From assembly GCA_905250025.1 (NCBI GenBank), contig CAJNOJ010000035.1, positions 372,001-436,000 of the forward strand: a DNA stretch of 64,000 bases. The letters are read 5' to 3'. A program made the translations under genes and the position numbers. This document shows positions 1 to 25,342 of this stretch, piece by piece. Under the pieces are notes generated by a model, which was not told the origin of the DNA, ran no database searches, and was given only the letters and a program-made list of their open reading frames with translations. This DNA is from Adineta ricciae. Taxonomy: Eukaryota > Rotifera > Eurotatoria > Adinetida > Adinetidae. Numbering within the stretch: the stretch's first letter is position 1; each line of letters starts with the position of its first letter.

Positions 1-3000
1 GCCAATCAATAACAAATGTCCGCGATCTAACCGAAGCACTCGGTAGATGCGCGTGATGTGCGCTAATGCATCATTGAATAGAACGACATCGATATTACCG
101 TACTGGTCTTTATATTCGACGACGATTTCATCAAATATTGCGCGTATGGCTGGATAATCTTGAAGGTCTTCATAGATCTTCGGTTCACCATCGTGCAAAG
201 CTGTTCGATAGTCAGCATAAAGAATAGGACTACGGAATAGATAGTTCTTTTGATCTTTGATCAAGCAATTTTCTTCCAGGATTTTCATGAATAATTCATG
301 ATCCTTAACATCATTGAAACGATCGGAAAAGACTCGAATACATTCGTGGATCCAAACACGAACAAATCGTTCTTTTGTATTGAATCGCTCGGGAGTTGTT
401 TGGAGAAGACTTTGAACAGTTCGACTGAGATCCCGTAATGAAAAGATATAATGCGATTTCAACGGTGTTGGAACAAATAGCCGCACAACATGATTGTAAA
501 TTTTTAATGTAGCATTGATCATACTTGAGATCATGTCTTGGATATCCGAACAGAATGTTACGACATGATTCTGTAAGATTGTAGAAAATATACGAAAGAG
601 AGATTCATGTGATGGTGATGGAATATAGAAAACGCTAAAGTGACTAAGAAAACGAGGGTCGAGGTGATTACTACTTCCACCTGGAACGAATTAATAAAGG
701 ATAGATTAATATCCGGTTCAAAGAGAATACATACTCGGAGTGTCCATCGCTACAATCCACTCGATATCGGTGGTAAATTTCCAATTCAACTCGTCGCTTC
801 GTTCGTACATCCCCTGTTTTTCGATCAATAGCTTCAAGAAAGCGATGGCTTGCTGAGTGCCGTACTGATCAATTTTTGGCATTGAAACATCGTCAAGAAA
901 GACGATTAGTTTCGTTCCGGCTGACGGTCCATACGTATCTTTCGAACGTTTTTCTAAATGACTTTCGATTGAACGCTGTACGTCAATTGACTTCGTTCGA
1001 AAGGAAAAATTCAATTTCAAATTCATATATTGACTAACGAAACGACGTAGATACGACAGAATAGTCGCGGTTTTACTAGATCCAGTATCACCGACGAATA
1101 GTACAGGATGGTGAATGCAGATCATCGACTGAAGTAACCATTCTAAAATAACTCCGAATTACTCAGTTGTCTTCGTATCGATGATCCCTTGTTATACCTA
1201 AACGAACTGTATCGACAGTAGGAACAAACAATTCTGTGAATCGCTGTGATCGGTCATGCTCATATTTTGGAATGAGATCATCCCAAATTTGCCACTGATT
1301 CAATTCCATTTGGAACACATGATCAAAGAGTAGCGGTTTCTCATGTGGCATCTGATTTGGTTTTGCTTTCGCACCAACGGTTGCAGTTGGAAGGCCGGAG
1401 AGGTATTTGATAAAATCATCGACAATGATTCGATCTTCTTGTTTCAAGCAAGCACCAAACGACCAGATCATAGCTTGAAGAAAAATTGCATGAATGACAT
1501 CCGCTGTTAGCTGTATCTGATTTTTCTTCTCATTGTTCATCAATGACAGAAACAAGAAGTCGAGTAGCTTTGTTAATTGTACGATAATATTTACTGGAGT
1601 TCTAAAATGAAGAAATCTTTTCAAATATACTCTCCTTATGTCAATGGTTGATTTACAGCGGGACAATCATTTTCATTCTTGGTCTTCGTTCCGTATCGGT
1701 TACACCTTGATAAATCAGATTGATCAGATTTTGGACGTATCGATCATAGAGTAATTCTAATTGATGCTTCTCATTTGACCGATCCGTGAAATTCCTATTC
1801 AACCATCGTTTCCATACTGGAGCGAGTCCTAGATTTTCCGGATCGACGTAAATCATTCCACAACGAGAAATAGTAGCTGGTGATGCATATTTTAAATCGC
1901 CAACTTCAAACAACAGGGAGCAATGATCTTGCAAACGGATACGTTCACCATTGGCTAATGTCAATAGTTTATTATCATCCATGACAGAATTCTGAAAAGG
2001 AAAATAATCGGTCGTCTTTCCAGTCGTATTTATCAAGAAAAGGCAACACCATATTTTCAATCCAGAGTGCATCCACATCACCATCAAATACGATACAGCG
2101 CCTTTCATTTCGCGTTGTTGACTGATTGATCATTCGGAAGAGTAGTGAAACAATACCGTCGGACCATTCGTCTGCAACAGGAAAGGTTTTCACATAATCT
2201 GACCATAAAACTCTGTATAGTTACGTGTTAATGGATCGAGTATTCCGTACAATTCAATCACGTTAACTGCTTTTGGGTTAAGCGTGTATAGACTTGTTTT
2301 TATTCCCATTTGAGTTTGTGCTTTCGCTAATATGTTCAGTATGACTGTTTTTCCTCCGCTGTACATTAAACATAAACTTAATTTCTCAGAAAATATATCA
2401 TTCAATCTCGTGTTTACCTCGTTGGTCCCACTAACATCGTCGAATGCCGTGTCATCATTGTTTTGTACAGCTGAATAATCTTATCGATTTGTCCCGAAAT
2501 TAGACTGTAACTTTGATCGGCTAGTGTAGTTTCAATAATTCGATTGAAATCTTCATAGTGTATCTCTGGACAATGAATATTAGGAAATAGATCGTTCAGT
2601 AACGCGTGAAATAGAGTGACATCATCAGAAATAAACTTTGGTACATTCATATCTTGCAAAGCTCTCAAAAGAACAATTTCTTCGCGATCATATCTCATGG
2701 TTGTACGTTTCAGATAACCAGCCATTGATAGAACAGCTTTGAAACTTCGTAAACCCCAATCATAATGATACTGAAACACAGAGTATGATCAAACAGTACA
2801 AATTTATCATGACACTACTTGTTTACTAATCAATTCTGATGCATAACGATACAATGTAACCATTTTCTTGGCTAATAATCTTGCACTGAGAAAACCATTA
2901 GCGAATAGCTTGATTTCTCCGATGTATTGCATATCAGGTACACTGAAAACGTTCAATTTTTTTTGTTGGAAATTCAAGGACTAGAAAGTCTAGTTACACG

Positions 3001-6000
3001 ACGACAACCGGCCGAAAGAGGGTTTTGACTGATTCGGGCAATTCTGTTCGTCCAGCATAGCCAGGATTCATGGTAACGAATATTCCCACAGTCGAATGCA
3101 GATGAATATAGTGATACTCGAAAAGAAACTCTGATTGTCGCAAGAAAAGTGCTTGTTGAATGGTTTTAACTTGAGTCGATATAACACTTAGCACTGATGC
3201 TTCAATACGATTGAATCTTTTGATCAGATTGTCTTTATCAGATGATTGTAAAATGATAGTCATATCTTACTCATCGAAACAACCCCAAGCGCCCGTCTGG
3301 CATAAACCATTCAAATTCTTGCCGATTGCTTGATAATCCATTCCTAAAATATTACCCAAAGTAGAATAGTCGTATTGTGTGATTCAGCTTCTCGATCGAA
3401 TACCTTCGCCACAATTGGTCACAACGCAGAGAAGACCCATGGCTTTTGCCAAATCCTTCACAGATTCTGTTTTACCCGTTCCTGCTGGTCCAGCTAGAAA
3501 CAGACAACGACCGGTATCGACACAGAATCTCGCAGTACATTCGACCAACCTGGTGCACATCCAAGAAACATCGATAAAGCCTAAGATGGAACTGATGAAT
3601 ACCTTATCATCAAGAATCGATAGTTACTTGAGTAATCGTCAAGTAGATTCGGTCTGTCAGTGGTGTTATAACAAGGCGACCATTCAAACCCATGTATTCA
3701 TAACCTAATCAGCAAAATAACCGTCGAATAGTAGTCAAAATCACAAACCATAGGGAAATTTTCCGTTGCATTGCTCCAAGTAAAGATTATCTTCTTTCAG
3801 CAACCAATAAAACCGCAATTGACTTTGCCATGCACTAAATTCGACATAATCAAAAACGTAATAAGATCATTTCGATCAACTCACAAATCATGAGGTTCGT
3901 TAATTCCATCACGAATTAAAACATCAACCATATCACGAGTGTGCACATCAATAGTAAGCACCGTTTCATATTTATTATACTCGTCTGATATAGGAAGTGA
4001 GAATAACGGTAAAAATGAAAGTAAGAAGTTTAATTACTTGATGTTAGAGATTTTCGCATTTCAAAAACAATTTCTTCAATCTGAACATTCAACTGTTTCA
4101 CGTAGAACTTCATTGCAGAACGTTGATTATGTTCTGTCATTTTATTGAATTGACTAAATCAAAGAATCGATTGAATAATACAATATCAACTCATTCGATT
4201 GCATACTCTTCGATTTCCCACGTACTCCACAATTGATTTACTGCTAACACGACCATTCCAATATATTGTCTCATCCATTCCAAACGATTTTGTTTGAATC
4301 GGTAATAAAAGGTAGCATCTTTCGTTATAGAACGATTCGAATATTTCATTTCTTTCTCGATATTTGACATCCACACTTCAACTTTTCCGTGACACTCAAC
4401 TGGATTAACGAATTTCATTTCTTCTCTCTCCATTGAGACCATTCCTATCACATAAATCATCGTTCGATGATGTTCTTCTTCTTGAGATAACTCGTTCTCT
4501 TGTTGAATGAAATTCAATGCAGCGATGTTATCAAACATTTTTTGCAAATATCCTTGAATGTCCTCCGAGTTCGATGATCCGATTATGGAGAGAAGTTCAT
4601 CGTCAGAAATGAAGTAAAATCGAGGAAATGATTGTCGTTTGGTGCCGAGATATTCATGTAAACTTTTCTGAATCTTTTCAGTTAAAGATAAAACTGATTT
4701 GAGTTCGTCGTATCGACCGGGATGAGTGCAGGCATCTTTCACTAGTGAATTTCTTGAAGTCTCTAGAAAACACGAGAGCAATACATAGCGACCAGTCGCT
4801 ACCATTAGTGAGGAGACGTGCCTAACATTATTTTTCGATATAGCTTATCTGCAGTATCGAAGCGTTTCGCTTCTTCACCAAACTGTAAACTCGAGCCGAT
4901 GAATATATTTTCTAGATACATCCATTTTTGCTGGACGACAGTCCAAATTTTGATCACGTCGGAGATCAAAGAGAGAACACGAATCCATTGTTCGACTTGT
5001 GAAAGATAAATTCCGACGAAACGCGACATTGTTATACCTCAAAAGGAAACAATTAAGTGATATATATAAGTATGGGCTGAAGTTTTGCAGTACCGTTGAG
5101 AAGTAGTATGGAATCTTCCAGTGCTTGAAGAATTTCATTCACTCCCGAGATCAAGAAACCACGATCTTGGTGTGCACTGACATTCGACGTATTACGCGTG
5201 TGTTTCTGGATTTGAAAACGCATGTTATTCCATTGTTGTTCGATATCTTTGAGATTCTTCTCAATTTGTAATTCTTTGATGGAAGTTTGGAGAATGTCTA
5301 GAATATACACTTGACCGGCTTTGACTCTTTGGACTATCGATATCGATTACTTTGAATGATTTCTTGATATTGATGTAAATTCATTTGAAAGATATTATCC
5401 AAGGTAAGAACATTGCTAGTTAAATCGATTTCTACATTGGTTTCGCGAATGATTTGTTGCCAATGACGTTCTCGTAATGCTTCGTGTTTTAAATCAAGCA
5501 TGATAGGAAGTGATGACCGAAAATCTACATAGATATGAATCGACAGCGGCTTCAAATAGTAGACATCGACCATGCAAGATGAATTCGCTCATACTTATGA
5601 AGTATCTTTCTACCGCACGGCCAACATTTGTGGATTTGATTTCCGATGGTAAACGTCGAAAAGCTTTGACGAATGAATCGACATTGACAATCAGTTGGCT
5701 GATATCCAGTTCGGACCAGAGGATATTAGCCCAAAGTTTTTCATTGTGTTTGAAATCATTGTAAAGGTTGAGTAGAATGTGCAGATTATTGATTTCTTGG
5801 TGCAAACGCGTCAGTTGTGGGTGATTTAGCAATGATATATGAAAAAGTTTCATCACATTGATCAAATCGATTTTTCGCTGTTCAATTTTATGAAGTTCAG
5901 TTTGATATTGTTGAGTCAGTTGGAAACTTCGCTGAAGATCATTTTCTATTGTGTATGGACCGAACTGATCGAATCGCTGGACGAGGTTATCGATCATTTG

Positions 6001-9000
6001 TTGAAAGAATTCAACATCATATTGAATTATTTCGCGAAAACGTTCACGAATCGATTTTAGACGATGTTGGATGACATGCGATTGTTGAACTATGTCTTTT
6101 AAACGAGGTTTCAGTGTTTGAATGAGAACCGAATCCGATTGAGGATATTCAAACTGATTTTCGTGTAAAATTCGATAGGATTGTTCAATGTCATCGATTG
6201 TATGTTCAATTGATTCTTGTTGCTGATGGACTCTATCAATTATATTCAAAACATATTTTAAATCAGGGACTGTGTCAGCATCGTGACGAAGACCTTGCGA
6301 AAGATTATTCAATACATCATTTGTTTCTTTGAGTTTAGTCGACATTTTTGTATACAAATGCTGACCGTAAAGATGAATCCAGCCTCGACAGTGGTATTTC
6401 AATGCTTGATAGAATTGCTTCAATGATAATTGTATGCAATAGAGATTTTGATTGTGAAGATGATGATCAAAGACTCGGTCAACTTTAGAAAACATACTCA
6501 TCATTTCATCATAGTCGGAGTAATGATGCGATTTCGAAATAAATTGACTGATCAATTTTTGCTTATCGTTTTTCCACAGATCGTTGTAGGCTAATAATTT
6601 GGTTAGTATGTGATTGATTGCAGTGACTAATCCCGAAGCATAAGCGCGAATTGGTTTCAACATTGAGATCTACGAAGACAAGTTTATTTCTTCAAAATAA
6701 CGATTTATCATCACTTACAACATCAGCATGTTGTCTAACATCGTTATAGAAAGTAAAATCCGGTGTTTCAATCTCTTCGTTTGATATGGATAATGACGGG
6801 CACGATATACAAGTGCCATGTAACCAACGTGTGAAGTACTTAGGTAGTTCACTGATGCCATAAGCACTCCGCCGGATCGAATTGACGATTTCTTCGAGTG
6901 ATGGTTGAAGTTTTATGCGTGGTGGTGCAAGGACAACTTCGACAGTGAATAGAGACGTAGCACCAAATATATTTTCGAAAAATTGACAAAGGTTACGAAT
7001 GACTAGTTCCACAAGAGATGTGAAAATTTCATGTTCCCAGTAAATGTAAAAAGAGCGCACTGGAAACCGTAAAGTTAATGTAAAACAAAACTTGAAACGA
7101 ATGAATAATTACTGACTGTTCTTATGTTTGCCAGTATTGGTACCGAAGACTAATGATTCGATTTTGGTTAGTATTGGTCCGATCAATTCAAAGCGGCGCT
7201 TCAAATTTGCAATGATCTCTTTTCGTTTTCTTTCCAGATATCCGAAGTATTCTCGACAAGTCAATAGACTTCCTACATGGATTTTCTCTGTGAACTGAAA
7301 TACACAGTTTTGTTAGCTTTATCACTTACCGTCTTCATGGCGTGGGACAACAGGATCTATTATACACAAACGAAAACTGTCCAAGTGCTCGCGAATGTCC
7401 GATGAAATTTTTCGACTTTGATTAAGAATGGAATGTAATTGATCTAAACGGCTTCGGCATTCTTTGATATAATCAATGGTTCCTATCTCCCCAAAAGATA
7501 TTCTCGACGTTCCTGGTTTGATTGAGGTTTGTAGTTGATCAAGATGTGACTGAAGAAGAGAAACTTCAATTGTGTCAAGCGATGCAAGTGTTAAATGGTA
7601 ATCTTCAAGCATTAAACGAAGTTCTTTTGATAATTGTTCGAATTTGGAGTATTGTAACGTTGTTTGACGAATCGATTCTGGTAAAAGAAATCCAAGTTTT
7701 TCTAAATTGTAACATTCGATTAAAGACTCTTTGAAGTCAGCATTGTAGTTTATTAAATATTTTAGTTCAATTTTCTTCTTCGTCCCTAATGTATCGTTGA
7801 CATACTGAAGGCGATGACACATTTCTTTGTGAGATTTCGGCTTATTTCCTAATGACTGCGCGATGTTGCTCGATACGGACACACGTGGAATGTCTTTTTT
7901 TGCAGCATAGAGTGACAATCGATGGCTTGGAACATCATGAATGTGATGGTCAAGAAAATACTCTGGTCGTTGTTCAACATCGATTAGTAAACTTTGTTTA
8001 AGATAGTTTGATAGTGTTTTCATGCAATTTCCAACCCATTTCGCATATAAGTCATCTTCGTATTCTTTTAACTGAGTTCCAACATCAATAAAACGTTGTT
8101 TTACTATTGCGCCTTGCTCCGATTGAAGAAATTGATTCAATGAACGTAATTTTATCATTGGCAGCTTTATCCGAGTAAATAGAAAACGAGCCCACTGGAT
8201 AGCACCCGAAACTGGCGGATACCCCTAGAAAAATCTTATGTCCAGGTACCCGACGAATGTCACTACGTACTTTGACTAGTGGCGGATTGTCTTTTTGTTT
8301 GTTGAACAAATCGACCATGGTATCGATTTCTTTGGAATATTTCGAAAGAATAGCTGTAAATTGTCGCATCATTTCATGTGCCAGTACATGATTTGTGTCA
8401 ATCCGTTGAAATTTCATTAACATATCCAATGCTGTTTCAGCTGAACGAAGTTGATTGAATGACACACGTATGAAAACTTTCGCTTCTTGCTCAATCACTG
8501 ACGAGCGGTGTTTAAAATCATCCATAAACAAACGCCATCGGTGAGCATTCTCACGGTTGAATATATCAAACTGACATGACGTAAAGGATTTTTTCAGATT
8601 GGTCACATGCTGAAGGACACGATCAACCATTTGTTCGTCGCCTGTTACCGCTTTCATATCAGAACTAAAGGTGTCATAAAATTCCTTTAAATTCAATGAC
8701 ATTTGGATTATATCATCAACGATCTGTGACATATAATCAGTCTTATCGAAAAGTATTCGATGATCAAAATTCCAACTTGAAAATCCACGTTTATCATTCT
8801 CGAGTTTGACTCGAACATTTTGATATTCTGTTTTCCATTGTAGTAACAACTGTTTAGCTTGGGAACAGAGATGTTCAATTTCTGTCAATGAGTTCGATGC
8901 AAACAGTGTTGATAAGTCGATTGTCTGTCGAACACGATTAATTATCTCATCAGCTATCTTTTCCATAAATGGAACGAACCGTTCATCTTTATTGTAGTGT

Positions 9001-10588
9001 TTCGACATGGTCCTGAAAAGAAAAGTGAAGCCCGTTGTTAGTCAGGCATTTCCTCGTGTGTACTAACCAAATCGTTTTTAAGCCTTGCATTAAATTTGGC
9101 AACATATGACTAACAGTTTGGAAGGACTTCGCCGTTTGTAAAATTTTCAAATGTCTTTCAATAGTCAGAAGAAATTTGTAGTTATCCATGGCTTCTAATA
9201 GGTAATTCTGCAGTTGACTTTTTATGCTATCGAATCCAGCAACTGAAGGACTATCGAGATCGGTTAGCATGTGTATAATTCTCATGACGTCGTCTAGAAC
9301 GAGGGAAGAAAATGAGAACGCAAATTTTTAGGAAAGCCCACCTCGTTTCATCTGTTCTAAGATTGAAGTGATTCGAACAGATCTCTCATGCCAAAATTCG
9401 ATTTCAGCGAGAGGAGTCGTTTGTATTACGCGTCTATTTAATTCATTGTTCAATTCTTCGTGTAAGATGCCCTCCCAATCATAGAGCAGATATTCCAGAT
9501 TTTCAATATATTCTTCTTCTGTTTCATCACCAGACATAGATAAACTCTTCGTTGGAATAGTTAATGTGAATTCGCCTTGCATCTGACGTACGGTCGATTG
9601 AATCTGTGAACAAAATCGATTCAAACTCACACGTAATTGATCACGCTCGGAAGTATCTTCAATCGAAGAGAATACTGAAAAGCAAGATTCATTTGAATGT
9701 TGATTTACCATGATTTACCTGACGACGGTTGATCCATGACTGATGGAAGTAAATGATTATAAACTAAAGACAATATCTCTACTAAAGATTCAAGTGAATG
9801 CTGTTCGGAAACGGTTCCTTCGATAATCGTCGCGTTCATAATCGCATTCATTTCATCGAAAGTTGATGATTGAAGTAAAGATTGTTGGGAATCGATTCGA
9901 ATGAAGTAAACAAACGACATTTTCATCGAGACGATGTTATGGTAATGCCGATATTCACAGTAGAGACGCGCTTCATGGTACGATTTTAATGCGAAATGGT
10001 AATGTTTATTATCGTACTGATTGACCACGAGAAGACGCTGGAGACTTCGCAGATTTTCATACAGTAGATCATTTGTATCATGGGTAGACGAACGAGCATT
10101 GTTGAAAACATAATCCACTACGAGAATCGAAAAATCATATTACATCAAAGCTTTCAAATCCTTTTTCTATTCTCCTTGTTCAAGTTTATACTCTAAAAAT
10201 TTACTTGGATATTCAGTTTCTGCGTCAACGGGTTCATTGATAGTCAAAACTATTTGTTGTTCATTCTCATCTTCGTCTTTCACACCAAACTACAAATACT
10301 TTCAAGCGATTCATCCCCACATCTTTTTTTTCGTTATACCTCGTCGACATCATCATCATCATCGAGAGTTTCAAACATCTGCCATACTTCTCTTCTTGAA
10401 TCTTCACGATAAAAGATCAGTGCATACAATCTTTCACGTATCATCGCATCCGAATGAAGAAATTCATCAATTAAATCTTCATTGAAACCATTATTTCGTT
10501 CTAACATACCGACGAATATCGATCTTTCAATATTCAACATATGACACGTTCGACGACAAAGCCATTCCAAACGAAAGTCATCTAACAT
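1..10588 (-). CDS. DNAH10: Axonemal dynein heavy chain, DNAH10-type inner arm, partial (N-terminus to start of AAA4)
   Basis: Motor subunit of a ciliary inner-arm (I1/f) dynein. The ATG at 10588 begins [10 protein letters not shown]-terminal stem and linker exons run to about 4190, including motif [16 protein letters not shown] near 8980. AAA1 has P-loop GPAGTGKT (about 3480, read on the minus strand), GAWGCFDE near 3290 and [16 protein letters not shown] near 3030. AAA2 has GPTSGGKT split by an intron at about 2345-2410. AAA3 has GDTGSSKT near 1090. The window ends at RGHLLLIG, the start of the AAA4 P-loop. The stretch [14 protein letters not shown] before AAA4 and the HYN-DER motif fit DNAH10 best among axonemal paralogues as I remember them. 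Introns are about 55 nt (for example 734-681, 1197-1143, and one of 55 nt near 1660-1605), each joining frames exactly. About 25 short exons. No break found. The family is certain; the paralogue is less so. Confidence 0.85.
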
Positions 10589-10625
10589 ATTCGGTCTACT
10601 CGATACGTCCGACTAGTAATCTGAT

Positions 10626-10640
10626 GTTCATCTAATGAAC
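10626..10640. promoter_or_regulatory. Perfect 6-bp inverted repeat upstream of dynein ATG
   Basis: GTTCAT and ATGAAC flank a 3-bp spacer about 40 bp before the dynein start codon, in the 197-bp gap downstream of SARS1. It has the shape of a dimeric factor site but does not meet the RFX X-box consensus (wrong fifth base). The function is unknown. Confidence 0.25.
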
Positions 10641-10785
10641 AGATCGGCGCGAAACATCTGTTTCTCGTTAGATTGACGGTAAATATCTTTATTTTTGTCT
10701 CAAGACATTCGGCTCACAATAAAAGTGAATGAAATGTCCAAAATAAGAACGGTTCTTGTTTAATGGTTCAACCAGATTGTTTTCC

Positions 10786-12698
10786 TTATTTTTTCTTAGC
10801 AGAAGCAGCTGCTTTTGATTCTTGTTCCACCGGTGCTTCTTTAACAAATGGAATCTTTTCCGCGTATTCTGAAAGACAAAACATCGTTCGCATCACAATG
10901 AACAAGAAGACAAGACACAAACTTTTCGGCATCAATGGTCGAAGAACTTCTGGTACAATAATACCATCGTCCGTTTGGTAATTTTCAAGAATGGCACAAA
11001 TTGTTCGTGTTGTTGCACACATGGTTGCATTCAACATATGAACATATTCCGACTATCGATCGAAGAAGAGAGATGGATGAATGAATGAACACTAACTGAT
11101 GGTGTGAACTTACGGATTCGTTGAGCTTCTTTGTTTGACCGTAACGAATTTTTAATCGTCTTGATTGATATTCAAGACAATTGGAACAGGAAACAAGTTC
11201 ACGGAATTTGCCTGAGCCGGGAAACCAAGCTTCTAAATCGAATTTCTTCGCCGCTGCGTTGTTCAATTCACCTAAATGACGAGTAGGTTTGGTCAGCTCG
11301 TTCACCAGAAATAGCCTATTCTCTACGTACCGGAAACAATATTGACAATACGATAGGGAATACCAAGTTGTTTATTGAATTCTTCGGCATTACCAATCAT
11401 TACTTCGAACATCTTCCATGACTCATTGTCATGAGGTGATGTAATGCAAAATTGTTCAATCTAAATCGAAGTCCCAGATACAAAGTCGCAGGAAAGCAAT
11501 GTTGTCATGTACTTTTTCAAATTGATGTACACGGAAAATACCACGTGTGTCTCGACCATGAGAACCAGCTTCTTGTCGGAAACAGGTGGAAATACCACCA
11601 TAACGAATTGGTAATCGTTCAGCCGCAAGCCATTCATCTCTGAAAATCATTCAAAAGATGGTTAGTACAATGAAACGTTAGCCTATCACTACCAACCGAT
11701 GAAACGCAGCGATAGCTTGTTCGGAAGTAGCAATCAAATATTTTTCTTCATCACTTGGCTCATCGGGTTTATCATTTTTACAAACAACCTAGACGAAACA
11801 TTCGGTTCGTTGATTCAGATTCTATTGTTCGACTTACCTTATAGAGTTCTTCATCGAATTGACTCAATTGTGCGACTTCCTGCATGACCTCTTTGCGCAT
11901 GAAGAATGGTGTGTACAAGATCTCGAAGTCTTTGTCATTTAGAATTCTTAATGCTAATTGAATGATTGCTTGTTCAAGAAACACAGCCGGGCCCTGAAGA
12001 AATCAAATAAATTTCAACAGTAACTTGTTTTCGACGAATCACACCTTCATGAAATAACCGCGAGATCCAGCAACTGACGCTCCACGATCTCCATCATAGC
12101 CGTCGATCATGTACATCAGATCGAAATGCGAGTACTTTTTTCGTGTTTCCACATCACCGAATGTTCGTTCAGTAACATTGTTATCCTAAACGAAAGACAA
12201 ATAATGTATTTGTCTTTAAGTTGATGAATGTTCAAATATATAGCTTACTTCATTATCACTGACTGGTACTGAATGATGAACAATGTTTCCAATTTCATGT
12301 AATGCGGCATTTCTGTCATTTTCAACTTTGATTAATTTTTCTTTAGCTTTCTCGATTTCGGTATCGATTAACAAACTGAGGCGTTTTATTTGTTTGATTG
12401 TCAATTTACCAATAGTATCCGCATTCAAATCATCCAAAGCAATTTTGAAACTTTCAGGAAATTCTTCCGAGTCACCTTCATTTTCCTTGGCTTGTTTCTT
12501 TGTTCCGACTGTTCGTCCGCAGAGATTTTTTATCTTGTTCCATTGATCAGCTTGATAACGGAGTGTTCGCCATTGAGAGTCTAAGTCCACGACCTGATCA
12601 ACAAGTTCGACACGTTTATAACGTTTCTTTTGAGAATCGCGAATAACTTGAGGATCGTGACCTTTTTCCGTACGAAACAAATCAATATCAAGAACCAT
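10786..12698 (-). CDS. SARS1: Cytosolic seryl-tRNA synthetase
   Basis: Charges tRNA-Ser with serine in the cytosol (class II aaRS). The ATG at 12698 gives MVLDIDLFR, as in animal SARS1. The N-terminal coiled-coil arm covers the first exon (12698 to about 12250). Motif 2 is visible near 11550 ([21 protein letters not shown]), and motif 3 near 11000 ([17 protein letters not shown]). The C-terminus is short and lysine-rich (ASAKKK). Introns are small. One of about 54 nt at roughly 10873-10926 has no in-frame stop, so it can be misread as coding; removing it restores PLMPKKYAEKIPF. The tail is shorter than in vertebrates and lacks their long basic extension. DNAH10 follows 197 bp downstream on the same strand. 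Length and motifs indicate a working enzyme. Confidence 0.95.
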
Positions 12699-13758
12699 AT
12701 TGACGATGTTTTATCTAAAAGAAACAGATACTAGATTTGAAATCACTATAATATACTATTTTTAGGTACATGCAATATGGAAGAATAATTGTGCACGTCT
12801 TCAACATATATTTAGTGGATGACATTGGATTTTCGTTGCGTCTCTAACAATTCTAGATGTCGCTAATGAATGATAGTCAGTATAACGGTAATATATATTG
12901 AATTGTGAGCTTTTGAACAGGTCGTAATTATCTCAAATAGCGTATGTCCGTATTTACGATTTCGTGAATCTAGACTTGCTATTTCCTCTCCGCATAGAAT
13001 ATCGTTTAGTCTGGGGACAGTATTTGATTATCTATCTGTATGTAGTCATGTTTAATAGGACGGGAAATGCATGTCCTATACATAAGTTTTGTTCCCTAAA
13101 CAATTAAACATTGTCGAAAGTGCGTCTATTGTTCATTTATGATCGACGATCCGTGATAACCTTGTGTTTTATGGAAGCTAGTTTATATCGGCTCATTGAT
13201 TTGATAAGATGCAGTAGAGAGAGATACACATGATTACTATAGCGCGAGTAGCTATTTCATTTATCAAGAGACTCATCAGTAATAAAAGACACTGAAGAGT
13301 TATGTGAAAATCTTGCCGGCATATAACCTGTTATGTTGTGTACATTTCTTCTCGTTTATACGATAGTTCGACGTATGCATTACAACATACATGATAGTAA
13401 GAAATATCGTGACCAACCAGAGAGAAAGGCTGAGTTATTTTGGGGATGGGAAGCAGAGAAGGAGAAGAAAAGAAGAAGAAGAAGAAGAAGAGCAACGACA
13501 CGAACTATTGATTGGCAAATATTATCATCAATATAGTCCTACGTATTATTATACAGAAATAAGGAAAAAAATACCATAGAGAGACAGGCAGAAAAGTGTG
13601 AAAGGCCATAAAGCCGCACTCATAAGACACACATACATAAACGCAAAGAGAAGAACGGCGTAGGAAAAAAGAAGATCGATATATCTTGCTATTTTTTGGG
13701 CACCATTTGATTCTAGCAGGCATCGCTTTAATATTGTTTTTCATTCAGTAGAACGAAC
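12699..13758. other. Intergenic region between divergent SARS1 and LIM genes
   Basis: About 1.06 kb with no convincing gene. It must hold both promoters. It contains a GAA/AGA run near 13456-13494 and several short stop-bounded ORFs without protein character. A TTTTTCATTCAG acceptor-like site ends at 13748, 10 bp before the LIM gene ATG. Confidence 0.6.
13456..13494 (+). repeat. GAA/AGA simple repeat
   Basis: A purine tract of AGAAGAAGA units upstream of the LIM gene. It creates spurious Lys/Arg/Glu-rich ORFs in all frames. Confidence 0.8.
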
Positions 13759-14790: not shown

Positions 14791-17295
14791 TTAATCCGAT
14801 GTGGTTGGCTTTGAGATCGTGCGAATAGGTATTAACTTAACTTTTCCTTTATCAGCACGACGTATTCGTCTTTTAACTTGATTTTTAACCATTTCTTTGC
14901 TAATTTCGACTTGCTTAAGCCATGATTTTCTTTTGAAATAAGCAGCTTCTTCTAAACAATGTACCGCAGTTGATCGTGTCGATGCACTCGCATAGCGTTC
15001 GTAGGGTTGCACAGTTGATTGTCGAATATTTACATCTATGTGGGATTTAATTGGATTCAAACGTTGTAATGATGGTTGATCGGGTAAAGGAATATAGGTA
15101 TCGATATCGATCGATTGTCGTTCGATGGGCTTCGGCACAGAGAGCCGATTTGTTGATTTTTGTGGATAAACATTTGGTATGTCATCGACAGATTGTTTGA
15201 TTCGTGAATATAATTGTTGCCGTTTTGTTTCGAGACCCTGGTGAAATTCTTGATTGATACGTAACGATGCTATTCCATAGGCATCAGCTGATGACATGCT
15301 GACTGGGTGGTCGTCTGGTTTATTCATAGTGCGTATTGATTCGGATTTCTTTGCTAATGACGGACAACTTATCGAAGCTTTCAATAACGGAGGAGTAATA
15401 GGAGGTAAAGTTGTTGTTTTTTCCTCATTGATGACGATCGCTGGTATCGAAGGAAAGCTTTTCAGTGCTGATTTTCGTTCATCTAAAATGGATAGCGTTC
15501 GCTCTGTTCTTACATCTTTATCACCGTTACCTTCTATGCGTTGAATTCTTGTTGGTGCGTTGAAGAGTACTGACGATGTGAAGTCATTAGTTGAAGTATT
15601 GTCGTTTTCGGGAAAAGACTCAAATCGTCTCAATTCTGGTACAGTGATGTTCGACTGTTTCTGATTGTTTGACGAAGAGGATGAAGAATAGATGCTATCA
15701 GATATAATCGAAGGTTGTTGTTTGTTTGGATAGATCGATTTTCGAGGCGATGATAGGAGCACGGGTGGACGTCGAGTATGTCGTAGATTTTCCGCTGCGA
15801 TCTGCTTGGCACGTTTTCGTTCACTCAAAGCGATATCTTGGACAATCAGCTTTGTTTCAAAAATTTTCTGTCGTTCCTCTGCACTAAAGCCAAGATAGCG
15901 ATCGGATTCATTGGATTTTAACGCTGCGCTCTTTCGGACGTGACGAAGCTGCTCTTCCGGAGTTTCAAATGTATTATTGAAACCATCAATTAGAACTTTA
16001 TAACCAAGTAAACCGTGCAATGGGTAAACACGTTTGTTTTGATTTGAAGTCATAAACTGCCCGCCATATTTTTTCCAAGTTTTTTCACGAGCACGCTCGC
16101 ACCACCTTTACAACAATTAAGTGAAGCATGAGAAAGAGAGAGAGAGAGAATAGATAGACGTTTTTACCTGATAATTCTGTAATACAATGGCACAGAAACA
16201 TAAATAAGATTCGTTGATTTGTGATGAATTGCGCCAGCACTAATATTTGAACTTAACAAATCAGCTATATATTCAGCTGTTGAATTCAATGGGATCTTCA
16301 TATTGTATTGTTTATCGTAGAGATAGTAATAAATAACACGATAGCGTTGCTTGTCTTGTTTAGTCGTTGCTAGCAACGAACAACCTAATGCAATCATGTA
16401 AGGTAAACTATCTGTGATAGGATCACGAATTTGTGTGCATAAGATCGATTGTCGAACGAAAAGATCGACGAGCTTGACGTGTCCTCTTTCGACAGCAATA
16501 TGAATGGGACATTTTAACATCTCAGGAAACGCCTCTTGCGCTGCTTCACTTGACCATTGCCGCGAGGGATGTTCACCCACCGGTCGATCACTGCGAGCGC
16601 CTTGCTGCAGAGCTGTATTTGCTAATTCCATATGGCCTAAAATACAAGATGGAACATATGATCGAGTGAAACGACGAGAAAGAACTCGAACCATGAAATG
16701 CTGCTATGTGTAGAGCAATCTGTATTTGATAATGTCGAGAGAGATCATCATGCGCATATCGCCCTGTAAAACCTTTTACACAAGCATCGATCAATTTATC
16801 ATAACCTTGCCAAACTTTCAAATAGAGATGAGCATGTGGTTTTAAATCATAGTCAAATAATTTCATACGATCATATAAACGTTGTTTTCCATCGTATGTT
16901 TCAAGACAGAATACGCTCAGTGGTAGGCCTAATCGGTTCGAAAGAATCTTTCGTATGTTCCCAATAGTTGTGTCGATTGATATGTTTGAATCGAATAATT
17001 TATAGATTTGTTTATTGTAACTACAGTGAACGTAAAGATCAGCCGCTTTCTTTTCACGATACAAACAGCGAATAATCGAGCCCGATGGGATGCTTAATTC
17101 CGCCAAAGACCATTTCGGTTTGAGATCTGAGCCATTATAGCTGAGAACAATGGAAATTTCACCGGCACTACTGTCTTGAGCATTGAGATCGAATTCTTTT
17201 TTGACTAATGTCAGGATGTCTTCGACACGAGCAGTTTCCGTTACATCAATCAGTCGCATGGAATCCTTTGGAGGGTAGTAGACAAAGTAACGCAT
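14791..17295 (-). CDS. ANKUB1: Ankyrin repeat and ubiquitin-like domain protein ANKUB1
   Basis: Poorly studied animal protein. The ATG at 17295 gives MRYFVYYPP, aligned with the vertebrate start. A ubiquitin-like region covers about residues 1-100 (SYNGSDLKPKWSLAELSIP), followed by a second beta-grasp-like stretch (LPLSVFCLETYDGKQRLYD). Ankyrin repeats follow: ALHIAAFHGHMELANTALQQGAR is rebuilt across a 55-nt intron near 16640-16700, then CPIHIAVERGHVKLVDLFV. A conserved region GYKVLIDGFNN lies after the third exon junction (about 16100-16160). The last exon (14791 to about 16100) is long, Ser/Pro-rich and low in complexity, and ends with CLEEAAYFKRKSWLKQVE, matching the conserved tail of the family. 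An upstream in-frame ATG at 17573 could add MWKRINHEIAA through a roughly 220-nt intron; I kept the conserved start. Confidence 0.85.
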
Positions 17296-18381: not shown

Positions 18382-20133
18382 ATGGTACGACGTTGGCATT
18401 TTACTGCAGCGATTCTTATATATGCGTTTGCGGCACTTCCAATTATATCAACGGAAAGTATAACAGCATTTCAAGCTGATTCGTTTGTGGAAAGCATTGG
18501 TGTCAATACACATTGGGCATATCCTAACGTTTACACTAAGAATTATACTGGTTTACGAGCCAAACTCGGTGAATCCGGTATCCGTTACGTACGAGATGGA
18601 GCTTATACCAATATTATCTTCACCCGTGCAAATGATCTATACAACAGTTTTGGCATCAAAACAAATATGTTGACCGGACGATGGGTACCTGGCATGTGGC
18701 CATCTCCACTAGATCCAACGCAAATCGATGCAGAACTGAACGATATTAAAACTTTAGCTTTACAGGCGACAGCAGCAATAGAAGCTCCCAACGAATACGA
18801 TCACGCCCATGGCCCTGACACTGATTGGGCATCGACTATCAAGACGTACAGTGTTCTTCTATATAATAAAGTCAAAGCTGATCCATTGTTGAAAAATATA
18901 ACTGTCATCGGACCGTCATTCGTAGAATTCGAAGCCTATCAAACTATAGGCAATTCCGATTCATTTCTAGATCATGGCAACCAACATTTATACTATTGGA
19001 CCTATTGGCCAGGTTTTAGCGGGTACGATACTAATGGAACACGTAGTATCAGTTGGTATTTGGACTATGTTGCTCCCCAACAATCACCATCCCGTAAACC
19101 TGTCCAAGGGACTGAAGCTGGTCACACAAATTTCATCGACGTTGGCGGTATCTCCGAAGAAGCTGACGGGAAATACATGGCTCGCATATTTGCTGAATTT
19201 TACCGTCATGGTATTTATCGCACTTACAAATATGAACTTGTTGATCAAGCTCTGTCGGACAGAGAAGGATTCTTTGGTCTATTACGCAATGATTTATCCG
19301 AAAAACCAGCATTTCGAGCTGTGAAACACTTAATCGCGATATTAAGTGATAAGGGATCAAGTTTTACGCCAAAAGCGCTGAGTTATACATTGACTGGTAG
19401 TTTAAATAATGTTCGACAAATTCTTTTTCAAAAACGCAATGGCGACTTTTACTTGATGGTATGGACAGAAGTATCGAGTTGGGATGTGTCACGGAAAGTT
19501 AATCTGTATCCATCGTCGCAGCAGGTTCAGCTTATATTACAAGGTAGTTATAAACTATCCAATGCAACACTGTACACTTTCGACAACAACGCAGATTTAA
19601 ACATCTTCTATCTTCCTATTACTAACAATCAAGTTACTTTTAATTCAACTGACAAGATCAGTATTATTCGGTTGAGAAATGAAACTAATTCTATTACCGA
19701 AGGACTTTATCGAATAACGCCGAAATTTGCCGCTCATGCTGGCCTTTATGCATCTAGTAATCAGAATAATGCGTTTGTCAGTCAAGAACAATATTGGGGC
19801 AGTGCCAATCAACAATGGATATTTGAACCTATCGATGGCAATTTCTTTGTTATAAAGAATCGCGCTTTCGGTCGAGTGTTGACCGTCCACGGTTGTAACA
19901 CAGATGATGGAGGCGCACTACAAATATACGACTGGACGAATTCTGATTGTCAAAAGTGGACATTTGAACTTCTTCCAAATGGTTACTATCGTATCACGCC
20001 AAAGCATGCATTAAATCAATGCATTGAAGTACAAATGTGTTCCACGAGTATTGGCGCCACAGTTCTGCAATGGTCTTGGTCAAATAGTGATTGCCAACAA
20101 TGGAAGTTGGAATGGATTGGATCGACTTATTAA
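18382..20133 (+). CDS. Secreted clan GH-A glycoside hydrolase with C-terminal ricin-B lectin domain, intronless
   Basis: Probable extracellular polysaccharide hydrolase, 583 aa in one exon. Residues 1-26 form a signal peptide (RRWHF then a hydrophobic AAILIYAFAALP). A TIM-barrel-like region (about 30-330) starts SIGVNTHWAY and contains GIRYVRDG. A likely acid/base Glu is in EAPNE (Asn137-Glu138), and a likely nucleophile Glu in GTEAG (Glu245), the usual strand-4 and strand-7 arrangement of clan GH-A. A beta-rich linker (about 335-440) follows. A ricin-type lectin domain (about 446-583) has three QxW-type repeats (QQWIFEP, CQKWTFEL, CQQWKLEW). The exact GH family is not assigned (GH5/GH39-like). 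Lack of introns among intron-rich neighbours, and the bacterial/fungal domain combination, suggest acquisition by horizontal transfer. The downstream neighbour is an intronless sugar permease on the same strand. Confidence 0.75.
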   Translation: MVRRWHFTAAILIYAFAALPIISTESITAFQADSFVESIGVNTHWAYPNVYTKNYTGLRAKLGESGIRYVRDGAYTNIIFTRANDLYNSFGIKTNMLTGRWVPGMWPSPLDPTQIDAELNDIKTLALQATAAIEAPNEYDHAHGPDTDWASTIKTYSVLLYNKVKADPLLKNITVIGPSFVEFEAYQTIGNSDSFLDHGNQHLYYWTYWPGFSGYDTNGTRSISWYLDYVAPQQSPSRKPVQGTEAGHTNFIDVGGISEEADGKYMARIFAEFYRHGIYRTYKYELVDQALSDREGFFGLLRNDLSEKPAFRAVKHLIAILSDKGSSFTPKALSYTLTGSLNNVRQILFQKRNGDFYLMVWTEVSSWDVSRKVNLYPSSQQVQLILQGSYKLSNATLYTFDNNADLNIFYLPITNNQVTFNSTDKISIIRLRNETNSITEGLYRITPKFAAHAGLYASSNQNNAFVSQEQYWGSANQQWIFEPIDGNFFVIKNRAFGRVLTVHGCNTDDGGALQIYDWTNSDCQKWTFELLPNGYYRITPKHALNQCIEVQMCSTSIGATVLQWSWSNSDCQQWKLEWIGSTY

Positions 20134-20756
20134 AAAGGACAGCGACGATTTGAAATGCAAAAAATGTATAAATGAAATGAACAGTTCTTTGGTAATACAT
20201 ACAGTGCGAAGAAATAAACATGAGAAACGTATTAGTCACATATTAGTTTTCGAAGGCCTTCTCACTGATAAAAACGTGAATGAGAATGATGACATCCTCT
20301 TAATCGATAATTATCCCTCTTCATACTTTTAAAGGTGGAATTTCGTACCGGACATGGCATAAAGTGCTAAACTGTACCAAATAGCCATCTAGAGACCGAA
20401 GTCATCGACAAATGTTTCTCTTATTTTCATCGACGGATGAACTTCCACTCTTGTTTCACCCGATTTCATGCGTTTACATGATAGGAAAATAGCCTTTTTT
20501 AATTCTAATCCGCGAATTAGACGCTTCTTTACAATTGTTGAATAAGTCATGGCATTATTTCTAATACTTAACATTCCATTTTAAAAGTCAAACCAATGAA
20601 TATATCATCATAATGGCAAGAAGATAAACATGATCTTTTACATTAGCACCAGTACAAATGTTTACGTCGTAGGGCGAAGTATCAAAGAAAAACGATCTGT
20701 GCTTTAATTGTTGGTCATATAGAGTTTCTCAAAGTAATTCGATGTAAAGAAAATCA
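20134..20756. other. Intergenic between hydrolase and sugar permease
   Basis: About 620 bp with no recognisable gene. Short ORFs at 20024-20332 (overlapping the hydrolase end) and 20389-20574 (-) have no family signature. It likely holds the 3' end of the hydrolase transcript and the promoter of the permease. Confidence 0.5.
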
Positions 20757-22346
20757 ATGACAATCGCCACAGTAAACGAAATCCATCAACAACATAAGAA
20801 TATACAGCATGGCAAGTCATATTTCGCTGTACTATTGGCAGGATTTTCTTCCCTAGGCGGATGGTTTTTTGGATATGACCAAGGTGTAACTGGCGGGATC
20901 GTCGTGATGCCTTCGTTTAAAAATGATTTTTGTGTTGGTGTATACGGTAATGCAAGTGTTTGTGATTTACCAGTCGCGTCATTGCCTGCTGATTATCGCC
21001 GATATTTAGTACTATTTACATTGCTATACAACGTGGGATGTTTTGTAGGTGCTTTGTTTATTTCTTCTTTTGTTGCCGACAGATTCGGAAGACGGGCAAT
21101 CATCCTCACATCAGCAATTCTATTTACAGTTGGAACATCATTAGTTATATTTCCACCGGGTGGCTCGAAAAAGATCATGATTTTAATTCTTTTCGGTCGG
21201 ATTATTGAAGGGACAGGCGTAGGTTGTTCGTCATTTTCTTGTCCATTGTACGCATCAGAAATCGCTCCTACTCATCTTCGCGGTATGCTTTCAGGCTTTA
21301 TGCAAATGACCGTTGTTACCGGTTTATTTGCTGCTAATGTTGTTAATTATTTCCTACAAAATCATAAATGGGGCTGGAGATTATCGAATGGAATTATTCT
21401 TATTGCGCCATTAATTATCATCATTGGTATCTATATGTGCCCTGAAACACCGCGCTGGTTATTTAAAAACAAGGGCCGTGAAGCTGCAAAGAGAAGCTTG
21501 CAACGCATTCGCAAAGCCGATGACGTAACAACAGAATTAGATGCGATTGCTGACGCTATTCGAGAAGAAGGTAATCAAGTGTCTCTTAAAGAACTATTCG
21601 CAAGCAAGAAAATGGCCGAAAGATTAGCTGTCGGGATCGGCATGCATATCTTTCAACAAACAACAGGTATCAATCCTATTTTTACATTCGGTGGAATCAT
21701 TTACGAGAATGTTCTCGGAAAAGGTATTATATCTTTACTCATCTTATCCGGAATTAATATGTTAAGTACTATACCAGCTCTATTTCTGTTCGATCGATTG
21801 GGTCGACGCTTCCTTTTGATAGTCGGTGGTTTAGGTATGGTTATAGGTCATTTAGTTGCTGCCAGCGTATTCGTGGTCGGTTGTAGTGTTGTGAAAGTAA
21901 TGAACAACGTTACGGCAGGCAGCGAAGAGATTGTTACATGTCAATCGAGTGCAGGAATTCTAATGCTGATCTTTACAGTTGTTTTCGTGGCATTTTTCGC
22001 CGTATCTTGGGGGCCTATTGCTTGGATTTATGCTGCTGAAATTTATCCATTGAATGTTCGAACCAAGGCTGTTGCAATGTCAACAGGCAGTAACTGGTTG
22101 ATCGGTATAATTATGGCCTATATTCTCGAATTGATCAGTCCGTTAGGTATTCACGGTGTATTCTATCTCTTCAGTGGATTCACTCTCATAGCTGTTCTAT
22201 TCGTTTATCTATGCTGTCCAGAAACACGAGGAGTCTTATTAGAAGACATCGAGAACATATTTGATAATTTTCAAATGAAAAACAGAACAATTGTTAAACT
22301 GATACGACGATCATACGAAGGTGATCTCATTCGAACATATATGTAG
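20757..22346 (+). CDS. MFS sugar transporter of fungal/plant hexose-permease style, intronless
   Basis: Plasma-membrane sugar:H+ symporter or facilitator, 529 aa, about 12 transmembrane segments. Family signatures in order: GYDQGVTGGI in TM1 (about residue 40); DRFGRRA in loop 2-3; GRIIEGTGVG and YASEIAPTHLRG after TM4; PETPRWLF before the central loop; QQTTGINPIF in TM7 (sugar site); DRLGRR in loop 8-9; GPIAWIYAAEIYPLNVRTKA in TM10; PETRG after TM12. The GYDQGV start and QQTTGIN resemble fungal quinate/hexose permeases and plant STPs more than animal GLUTs, which usually have GYNxGV/INAP and QQLSGIN. One exon, co-oriented with the upstream glycoside hydrolase 623 bp away. Substrate not determined. 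Confidence 0.85.
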   Translation: MTIATVNEIHQQHKNIQHGKSYFAVLLAGFSSLGGWFFGYDQGVTGGIVVMPSFKNDFCVGVYGNASVCDLPVASLPADYRRYLVLFTLLYNVGCFVGALFISSFVADRFGRRAIILTSAILFTVGTSLVIFPPGGSKKIMILILFGRIIEGTGVGCSSFSCPLYASEIAPTHLRGMLSGFMQMTVVTGLFAANVVNYFLQNHKWGWRLSNGIILIAPLIIIIGIYMCPETPRWLFKNKGREAAKRSLQRIRKADDVTTELDAIADAIREEGNQVSLKELFASKKMAERLAVGIGMHIFQQTTGINPIFTFGGIIYENVLGKGIISLLILSGINMLSTIPALFLFDRLGRRFLLIVGGLGMVIGHLVAASVFVVGCSVVKVMNNVTAGSEEIVTCQSSAGILMLIFTVVFVAFFAVSWGPIAWIYAAEIYPLNVRTKAVAMSTGSNWLIGIIMAYILELISPLGIHGVFYLFSGFTLIAVLFVYLCCPETRGVLLEDIENIFDNFQMKNRTIVKLIRRSYEGDLIRTYM

Positions 22347-23967: not shown

Positions 23968-25342
23968 ATGAGGACTATTTTGCTCCTATCAATAACGATT
24001 TTAGCACAAGTCTATCTAACAACAGCTGAATGTCCTCCAACAAAAGGATCGATTCAAAACCTACTCGATGAACTGAATGTTCCCGGAGCTGCTATTATTG
24101 TTCTCAATCGAGATGGCATTCTTTACGAACAAGCATTCGGATACCATACTCCTCCAATATCGGATTCACGCCGACCTATCGACACTTCGCAATCAATTTT
24201 CATGATAGCATCCATTTCCAAAACATTCGTTTCTGTAGCAGCAATGCAAATGGTTGAATCCAATCTGCTGAATCTGGACACGGATATCAACGAATATTTA
24301 TCTCCGTTAATGAAAATTATTCATCCATATCACCCGAATGTAACGATCACGACTCGACATCTGCTCACGCACACCGCTGGTATTGGACCAAATTGGGAAG
24401 AAGAGTCCAAACATTATCTTTCTGGTGATAAATTTACACAAACTAATCTGGGTGACGTTCTCAATGATTATTTAAGCCGCAAAAAAGGTTGGCTATCAAT
24501 TCCACCTGGAAATATCACATTATACTCAAATGTGGGTACTAGTCTAGCAGCATTTATCGTCGAGCGTCTTTCGGGCATGTCATATGAACAGTATGTACTT
24601 GAAAAAATCTTGAAGCCCCTAGGTTTGGATGACAAGAAAGCTGGTTTCCGTTTGAAAAACTTCGAAGATAACAAGGCAGCTCTCGTTGATCATTATGTGC
24701 ACAATGCTTCATTTCTTGAAACTTACCAACAAATGGGTCCACAAATGAACATTACTCAGGTAAAGTACAAGTACAATTTGTTGATATGACATTATACATC
24801 TTTTTTGCTAGGCAGGAAGCTCTGATTGGTTGTATATACCATTCTTTGGATTGAGTATATATCCATCTGGAGCGTTACGTATGTCAGCTCATTCATTGAG
24901 TATATTCTTTCGATCTTTTCTGAATAATTTTCCAAATCTTCTGCGCAATCCAAGTACAATGAATGAAATGCTATATATTTTTCCTCAGCAAGACTATATG
25001 AACATTTCGACAACTAAATTCAGTCTGATTTGGAATTGGCCACTTGTTCATGGACGACGTCTAGTTGGACACGATGGGTCTGTGCCTGGTATCACTACGA
25101 CGATGATGGCAAACGAAAAGAGAGATTTAGGCGTGGTAATATTAACCAATGGCGATATTACAAGATCAGACAGTGAAGCAATGCAAGTGAGACAAACCAT
25201 TCACAAGTTATTGACTCAAATGTTTGATTGTTACGAAACAAGTAAAAGTTTGGCCACCAATCAACAATACAATATCATATACATTTCGTGGATGCTTAGT
25301 ATTTTGTGCTTTTATATGTTTTGTTCTTCGACACAGCTGTGA
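23968..25342 (+). CDS. Secreted or membrane-anchored serine hydrolase, beta-lactamase/PBP4* fold
   Basis: Member of the class C beta-lactamase / penicillin-binding-protein-like family (Pfam Beta-lactamase type; animal relatives include LACTB-like proteins). Signal peptide MRTILLLSITILAQVYLTTA. The catalytic set is intact: SxxK as SISK (about residue 90), YxN as YSN in TLYSNVG, and the third motif as HDG in VGHDGSVPG. LTHTAGI and LKPLGLDD are typical family segments. Two exons: 23968 to about 24759, intron of about 52 nt (gtaaag...gctag), and about 24812-25342. After the catalytic domain the chain ends in a hydrophobic stretch (IIYISWMLSILCFYMF), so a C-terminal membrane or GPI anchor is likely. 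Esterase, peptidase or amidase activity is possible; substrate unknown. Upstream ATG with TATA-like TATATATA at about 23911. Confidence 0.8.

Follow-up and report, generated by a model that had tools for sequence, protein, structure and literature searches.

Were two adjacent intronless genes of a bdelloid rotifer acquired together, and what do they encode? The question is raised by a stretch of 64,000 nucleotides of the Adineta ricciae genome, here called the window (contig CAJNOJ010000035.1, labelled C35; C35:372001-436000), in which a gene for a glycosidase with a lectin domain is followed by a gene for a sugar porter. The transfer of the glycosidase from bacteria is well supported by comparison with prokaryote sequences, and the closeness of the two genes probably reflects placement inside the rotifer genome and not a shared transfer. 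Each open reading frame (ORF) is uninterrupted with its sole stop codon at the end, which bears out the two same-strand intronless genes of the original prediction, an earlier reading of the window. The following features were assigned, PslG being an exopolysaccharide hydrolase of Pseudomonas aeruginosa and MFS the major facilitator superfamily:

18382-20133, plus strand: PslG-like glycosidase with C-terminal ricin-B lectin, 583 amino acids, intronless, probably secreted
18382-18456, plus strand: probable signal peptide with hydrophobic N-terminus, assigned by eye (residues 7-25, mean Kyte-Doolittle value 1.66)
18445-19695, plus strand: catalytic domain, closest structure PslG, Pfam search to E 10 without a listed match
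18793-18795, plus strand: codon of Glu138, the predicted acid/base (counterpart of PslG E165)
19114-19116, plus strand: codon of Glu245, the predicted nucleophile (counterpart of PslG E276)
19699-20112, plus strand: ricin-type beta-trefoil lectin domain (Pfam)
20757-22346, plus strand: sugar porter family MFS permease, 529 amino acids, intronless

Domains, predicted fold and active site of the glycosidase

The ricin lectin domain was located within residues 440-577 (Pfam PF14200, E 1.9e-21; PF00652, E 2.8e-8). The hydrophobic N-terminus and six N-glycosylation sequons fit a secreted protein, and the glycosidase is probably secreted by means of a signal peptide. The search of the catalytic part that listed no Pfam match extended to E values of 10, although matches with E above about 0.1 are mostly removed by the HMMER filters. 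The Pfam family Glyco_hydro_39 was not among the four families, each found in one member, that were listed at E up to 0.01 for the 73 sequences of alignment A5, which includes 72 of the 85 listed bacterial domains. Since the Pfam GH39 model gave no match, the glycosidase was not filed as GH39.

The AlphaFold model of the catalytic domain reached a predicted local distance difference test score (pLDDT) of 95.3 from an alignment of 73 diverse rows, while a run on six near copies attained a pLDDT of 32 only. With the predicted model as query PslG ranked first in Foldseek and in a second look with VIA-align, followed by GH30 xylanases and other families; PslG and one GH39 enzyme stood about 5 Z units above all other structure rows shown, and a profile search likewise put PslG first. 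PslG (PDB 4zn2, 5bx9, 9g17) shares the predicted fold and the catalytic pair with the rotifer protein, which however is only about 16% identical, is encoded by an animal and bears a lectin of the ricin type as well as a probable signal peptide. The GH39 enzyme of Bacteroides cellulosilyticus (5jvk) shows about 18% identity and differs in host and domain set. The secreted GH-A enzyme with a ricin-B domain that had been predicted for this gene thus reappears as a clan-A-type fold with an attached ricin lectin and, probably, a signal peptide.

Following the clan-A rule, Glu138 would act as acid/base and Glu245 as nucleophile. Both residues, which had been proposed as putative catalytic glutamates, are present in the motifs APNEY and TEAG, respectively, and alignment A5 shows no variation in either column across all 73 sequences (E117 and E224 in fragment numbering). 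In the profile alignment NE and TE share columns with PslG chain positions 139 and 250 as counted by hand, which correspond to E165 and E276 when the PslG numbering offset of 26, derived from the structure-comparison residue numbers, is applied. These two are the key residues of PslG according to a part of the published description (PMC9075953).

Bacterial relatives and origin of the glycosidase

Relatives were sought in prokaryote, phage and plasmid collections, and the trees contain rotifer and bacterial rows. The scan of genome contigs revealed 78 bacterial loci with glycosidase relatives, the best of them (40% identity) in a metagenome-assembled genome (MAG) of the Spartobacteria. Two unrooted trees were calculated, one of 96 rows and a careful one of 49 of those rows. 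In the latter all six rotifer rows fall into a single clade (100/100) that is joined to locus L043 of the Spartobacteria and locus L044 of the Planctomycetota (100/99), and the 96-row tree agrees; the rotifer glycosidases are nested among bacteria under any root off the rotifer branch. Both L043 and L044 look bacterial, with a GC content of 0.64 and about 90% coding sequence. The non-metazoan origin proposed earlier is supported for the glycosidase, which the trees group within bacterial genes from the prokaryote collections. No relative indicating a viral source was detected in viral contigs by a light scan with rotifer-protein patterns, which is sensitive to close relatives only.

Bdelloid rotifers carry glycoside hydrolases of bacterial or fungal origin, as stated in a portion of a previous report (PMC11258130). 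No report of a PslG-like enzyme in rotifers was found among titles and abstract beginnings of the open literature, subscription journals being mostly outside this scope. The glycosidase would add a PslG-like enzyme to the horizontally acquired carbohydrate enzymes already known from bdelloids.

The loci L037-L120 represent a bacterial glycosidase family from eleven phylum groups, as labelled in the records, without a fitting Pfam model; some members are joined to ricin or PA14 domains, and the family merits a model of its own. Locus L047, from a MAG named Tatlockia (Legionellaceae), holds a copy very similar to that of the cyanobacterium Chlorogloea and is probably a misbinned contig.

Possible gain of the lectin domain

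The ricin domain is absent from the nearest bacterial genes (L043, L044) as well as from the first-branching rotifer copy on contig C89, while the other rotifer copies have it. Because of this distribution the lectin was possibly joined to the enzyme inside the rotifer, that is, it may have been added after the transfer; the loss of the lectin in the C89 copy is an alternative. Similar combinations were detected in bacteria: the Granulicella tundricola protein WP_013573206.1 unites the same catalytic family with a ricin domain, which however is N-terminal, whereas that of Saprospiraceae locus L054 has its ricin domain at the C-terminus like the rotifer enzyme but is not the nearest in the tree.

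A glycosidase paralogue on contig C266 (10645-12522 and 19250-21285) contains a linker of Ser/Thr-rich repeats between the catalytic and lectin domains, and its other copy is apparently broken at a duplicated stretch of 214 bases.

Presumed role of the glycosidase

The reading that we favour, with about even confidence, is that a bacterial exopolysaccharide-type glycosidase was turned into a secreted matrix-loosening enzyme and that the porter was recruited separately. A PslG-type glycosidase would have entered the rotifer lineage from a bacterial donor whose gene most resembled those detected in Planctomycetota and Verrucomicrobiota, and its gene would then have multiplied in the rotifer. The product would be a secreted, retaining endo-glycosidase employing Glu138 as acid/base and Glu245 as nucleophile, which the lectin domain might anchor to sugar-rich surfaces. 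It would most likely serve digestion by loosening the polysaccharide matrix of bacterial films grazed by such animals, and the independently recruited porter may import hexoses. If true, the food behind the biofilm matrix would provide a biochemical reason for a bacterium-grazing animal to keep a foreign gene, and the widespread bacterial family, poorly covered by Pfam, would be a source of candidate anti-biofilm enzymes. A more specific version, according to which the animal took over a bacterial biofilm-matrix hydrolase, added the lectin itself and expanded the family (comprising at least the C35 gene, the two on C266 and the one on C89) for bacterial slime, is tentative and rather unlikely.

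The gene context of the bacterial relatives might fit an exopolysaccharide substrate in part: with nine queries, exopolysaccharide-type genes were identified in 28 of 78 glycosidase loci (median length 16.5 kb) compared to two of 20 control chunks of 12.5 kb, and in 29 of 80 loci when the same queries were used at a slightly different threshold. The rotifer locus has no such context. Several points weigh against the favoured reading. The control chunks were drawn from four plasmids on which this glycosidase is itself encoded, and one of the two control hits sits in a glycosyltransferase cluster on a glycosidase-bearing plasmid. Moreover, glycosyltransferases occurred at similar rates near to and far from the glycosidase in the same loci (Glyco_trans_1_4 in 8 of 141 near ORFs, Glycos_transf_2 in 6 of 83 far ORFs), so nearness to the glycosidase is not itself the signal. 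These scans covered 141 of 145 near ORFs (two ORFs from L037 and two of very great length were omitted) and 83 of 84 far ORFs (one long ORF of L040 was omitted); L086 and L119 were omitted when the ORFs were picked, and six more loci gave no gene with the simple caller.

Further points on the same side, namely the GH30 xylanases and other families following PslG in the fold comparison, the low identity to PslG and the ricin domains known from xylanases, lend weight to a rival explanation: the enzyme would still be of bacterial origin, but its substrate would be a plant, algal or fungal wall glycan as in xylan-active GH30 and GH39 enzymes, PslG being merely the nearest solved fold. Taking into account the distance of PslG and the one GH39 enzyme to the remaining structure rows, the first rank of PslG in the profile search and the exopolysaccharide genes at part of the bacterial loci, we regard this substrate as possible, if somewhat doubtful. 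It seems quite unlikely that the secreted lectin-enzyme serves defence against fungal or bacterial attackers instead of digestion, the nearest fold being that of an exopolysaccharide hydrolase.

The sugar porter and the question of joint acquisition

According to its sequence the second gene is a member of the sugar porter (SP) family of the MFS. It matches Sugar_tr (PF00083) at E 1.3e-105, spanning positions 5-452 of the 452 in the profile, and TIGR00879 with 314.9 bits, above the cut-off of 237.8, in line with the MFS sugar permease that had been predicted. Among solved structures the plant hexose symporter STP10 (7aaq) matched best, at E 1.3e-62 and over residues 15-503 of the 529 in the query; it belongs to a different kingdom, and the substrate of the rotifer protein is putative. 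The scores amounted to 216 bits for STP10, 171 for the bacterial GlcP and 157 for human GLUT1. Within the phylum to which the Verrucomicrobia MAG G011 belongs, 87 of 194 genomes yielded a porter match, with a best score of 191 bits that is not decisive compared to the 216 bits of STP10. The motifs of the porter have a putatively fungal look. Altogether the porter seems ordinary and recruited independently of the glycosidase.

The original prediction regarded the two genes as a transferred catabolic pair and proposed to check whether they are linked in bacterial genomes. The adjacency on one strand and the lack of introns in both genes would agree with a joint transfer from one donor, as would the verrucomicrobial locus L083, in which a sugar-porter-like ORF and the glycosidase ORF are divergently oriented, about 1.5 kb apart. 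L083 was, however, the only one of 84 bacterial loci, many with short flanks, to show such a linkage, which is absent from the closest relatives L043 and L044. Furthermore, five of 12 glycosidase-bearing genomes, including the nearest relatives G001 and G002, gave no porter match at E up to 0.001, although some of the 12 are MAGs, which may be incomplete. As the linkage was this rare and these five genomes had no match, transfer as a unit is highly unlikely. The rotifer paralogues are likewise unlinked: no contig is common to the glycosidases on C266 and C89 and the near porter relatives on C68, C417, C259 and C248, and the collinear regions on C76 and C18 described below had no matches. The bacterial glycosidase of the earlier proposal is thus supported, while the acquisition as a unit is not. 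Joint use of both genes after a chance placement is possible, and extracellular cleavage followed by uptake may plausibly form one pathway.

That both are vertically inherited metazoan genes which lost their introns is hardly credible: base composition and GC content at third codon positions (GC3; 0.33 in the pair versus 0.31-0.35) resemble those of neighbouring genes, but the glycosidase groups within bacterial genes and the porter scores higher with STP10 and GlcP than with GLUT1.

Copies of the pair and collinear regions in the rotifer genome

The pair recurs 76.6 kb away at C35:466981-470944 with protein identities of 96% (glycosidase) and 97% (porter). Relative to this second copy the ratio of nonsynonymous to synonymous divergence (dN/dS) is 0.12 for the glycosidase and 0.08 for the porter, indicating that both are constrained. 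The copies belong to a block of about 76.6 kb arranged head to tail (C35 364929-441485 and 441487-518309, 93-94% identical, one base between them), the first of which includes the window; a run of 50 N is located at C35:363385. Synonymous divergence (dS) is 0.16 and 0.17 for the pair, 0.14 for the copies 8 kb apart on C266 and 0.17 for the copies 64 kb apart on C68. Since these values are alike, all three cases are suggested to be allele pairs, and the pair at C35:466981-470944 probably represents the other allele; the simplest account of the block repeat is that two haplotypes were joined in the assembly. Linkage of homologous copies within a single scaffold has been described for A. vaga, and two tandem cases for A. 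ricciae (PMC5916493, in part), where the later part of a legend contains the wording "introduced during scaffolding".

Other glycosidase genes are present on C89 and on C266, where two tandem genes each occur in duplicate and one of the copies appears to be broken; fragments lie on C555 and C906. Genes occur in sets of four in this genome, and ancestral tetraploidy has been reported (PMC5916493, in part). Two genes flanking the insert served as anchors for collinearity:

16588-17295, minus strand: left flanking gene with a weak ubiquitin-like match; C76 and C18 carry relatives of 53% identity
32836-33360, plus strand: right anchor, encoding ribosomal protein L14, with 89% identity on C76

On C76 the order and orientation of the relatives of the left neighbours (14791-16053 and 16588-17295), a MOZ/SAS acetyltransferase and ribosomal protein L14 are kept, and on C18 those of both left neighbours and, in part, of the MOZ/SAS gene. 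Between these anchors the genome searches listed no match to the glycosidase, the porter or the serine hydrolase encoded downstream of the pair. The insert hence seemingly resides on one of two ancient copies; it seems to have been gained after the genome doubling or lost since from the other copy.

Neighbouring genes

Between positions 1163 and 9008, four ORFs on the minus strand match distinct domains of a dynein heavy chain; positions 1-13000, this stretch included, contain 27 ORF fragments of at least 70 amino acids, which are not exons in every case. The MOZ/SAS acetyltransferase, ribosomal protein L14 and a SNARE are further ordinary eukaryotic genes. Contamination was rejected in view of the dynein, ribosomal protein L14 and SNARE neighbours, the matching GC3 and the twofold presence of the block. 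Published intron lengths have medians of 55 bp in A. ricciae and 58 bp in A. vaga, the order of the columns being presumed in this excerpt of PMC5916493.

The beta-lactamase-fold serine hydrolase gene downstream of the pair (23968-25342) has a single short intron with six GT-AG solutions of 40-79 nucleotides. It retrieved 17 genome rows of 42-100% identity over nearly the whole query, including itself and its second copy, and is another candidate for foreign origin and expansion.
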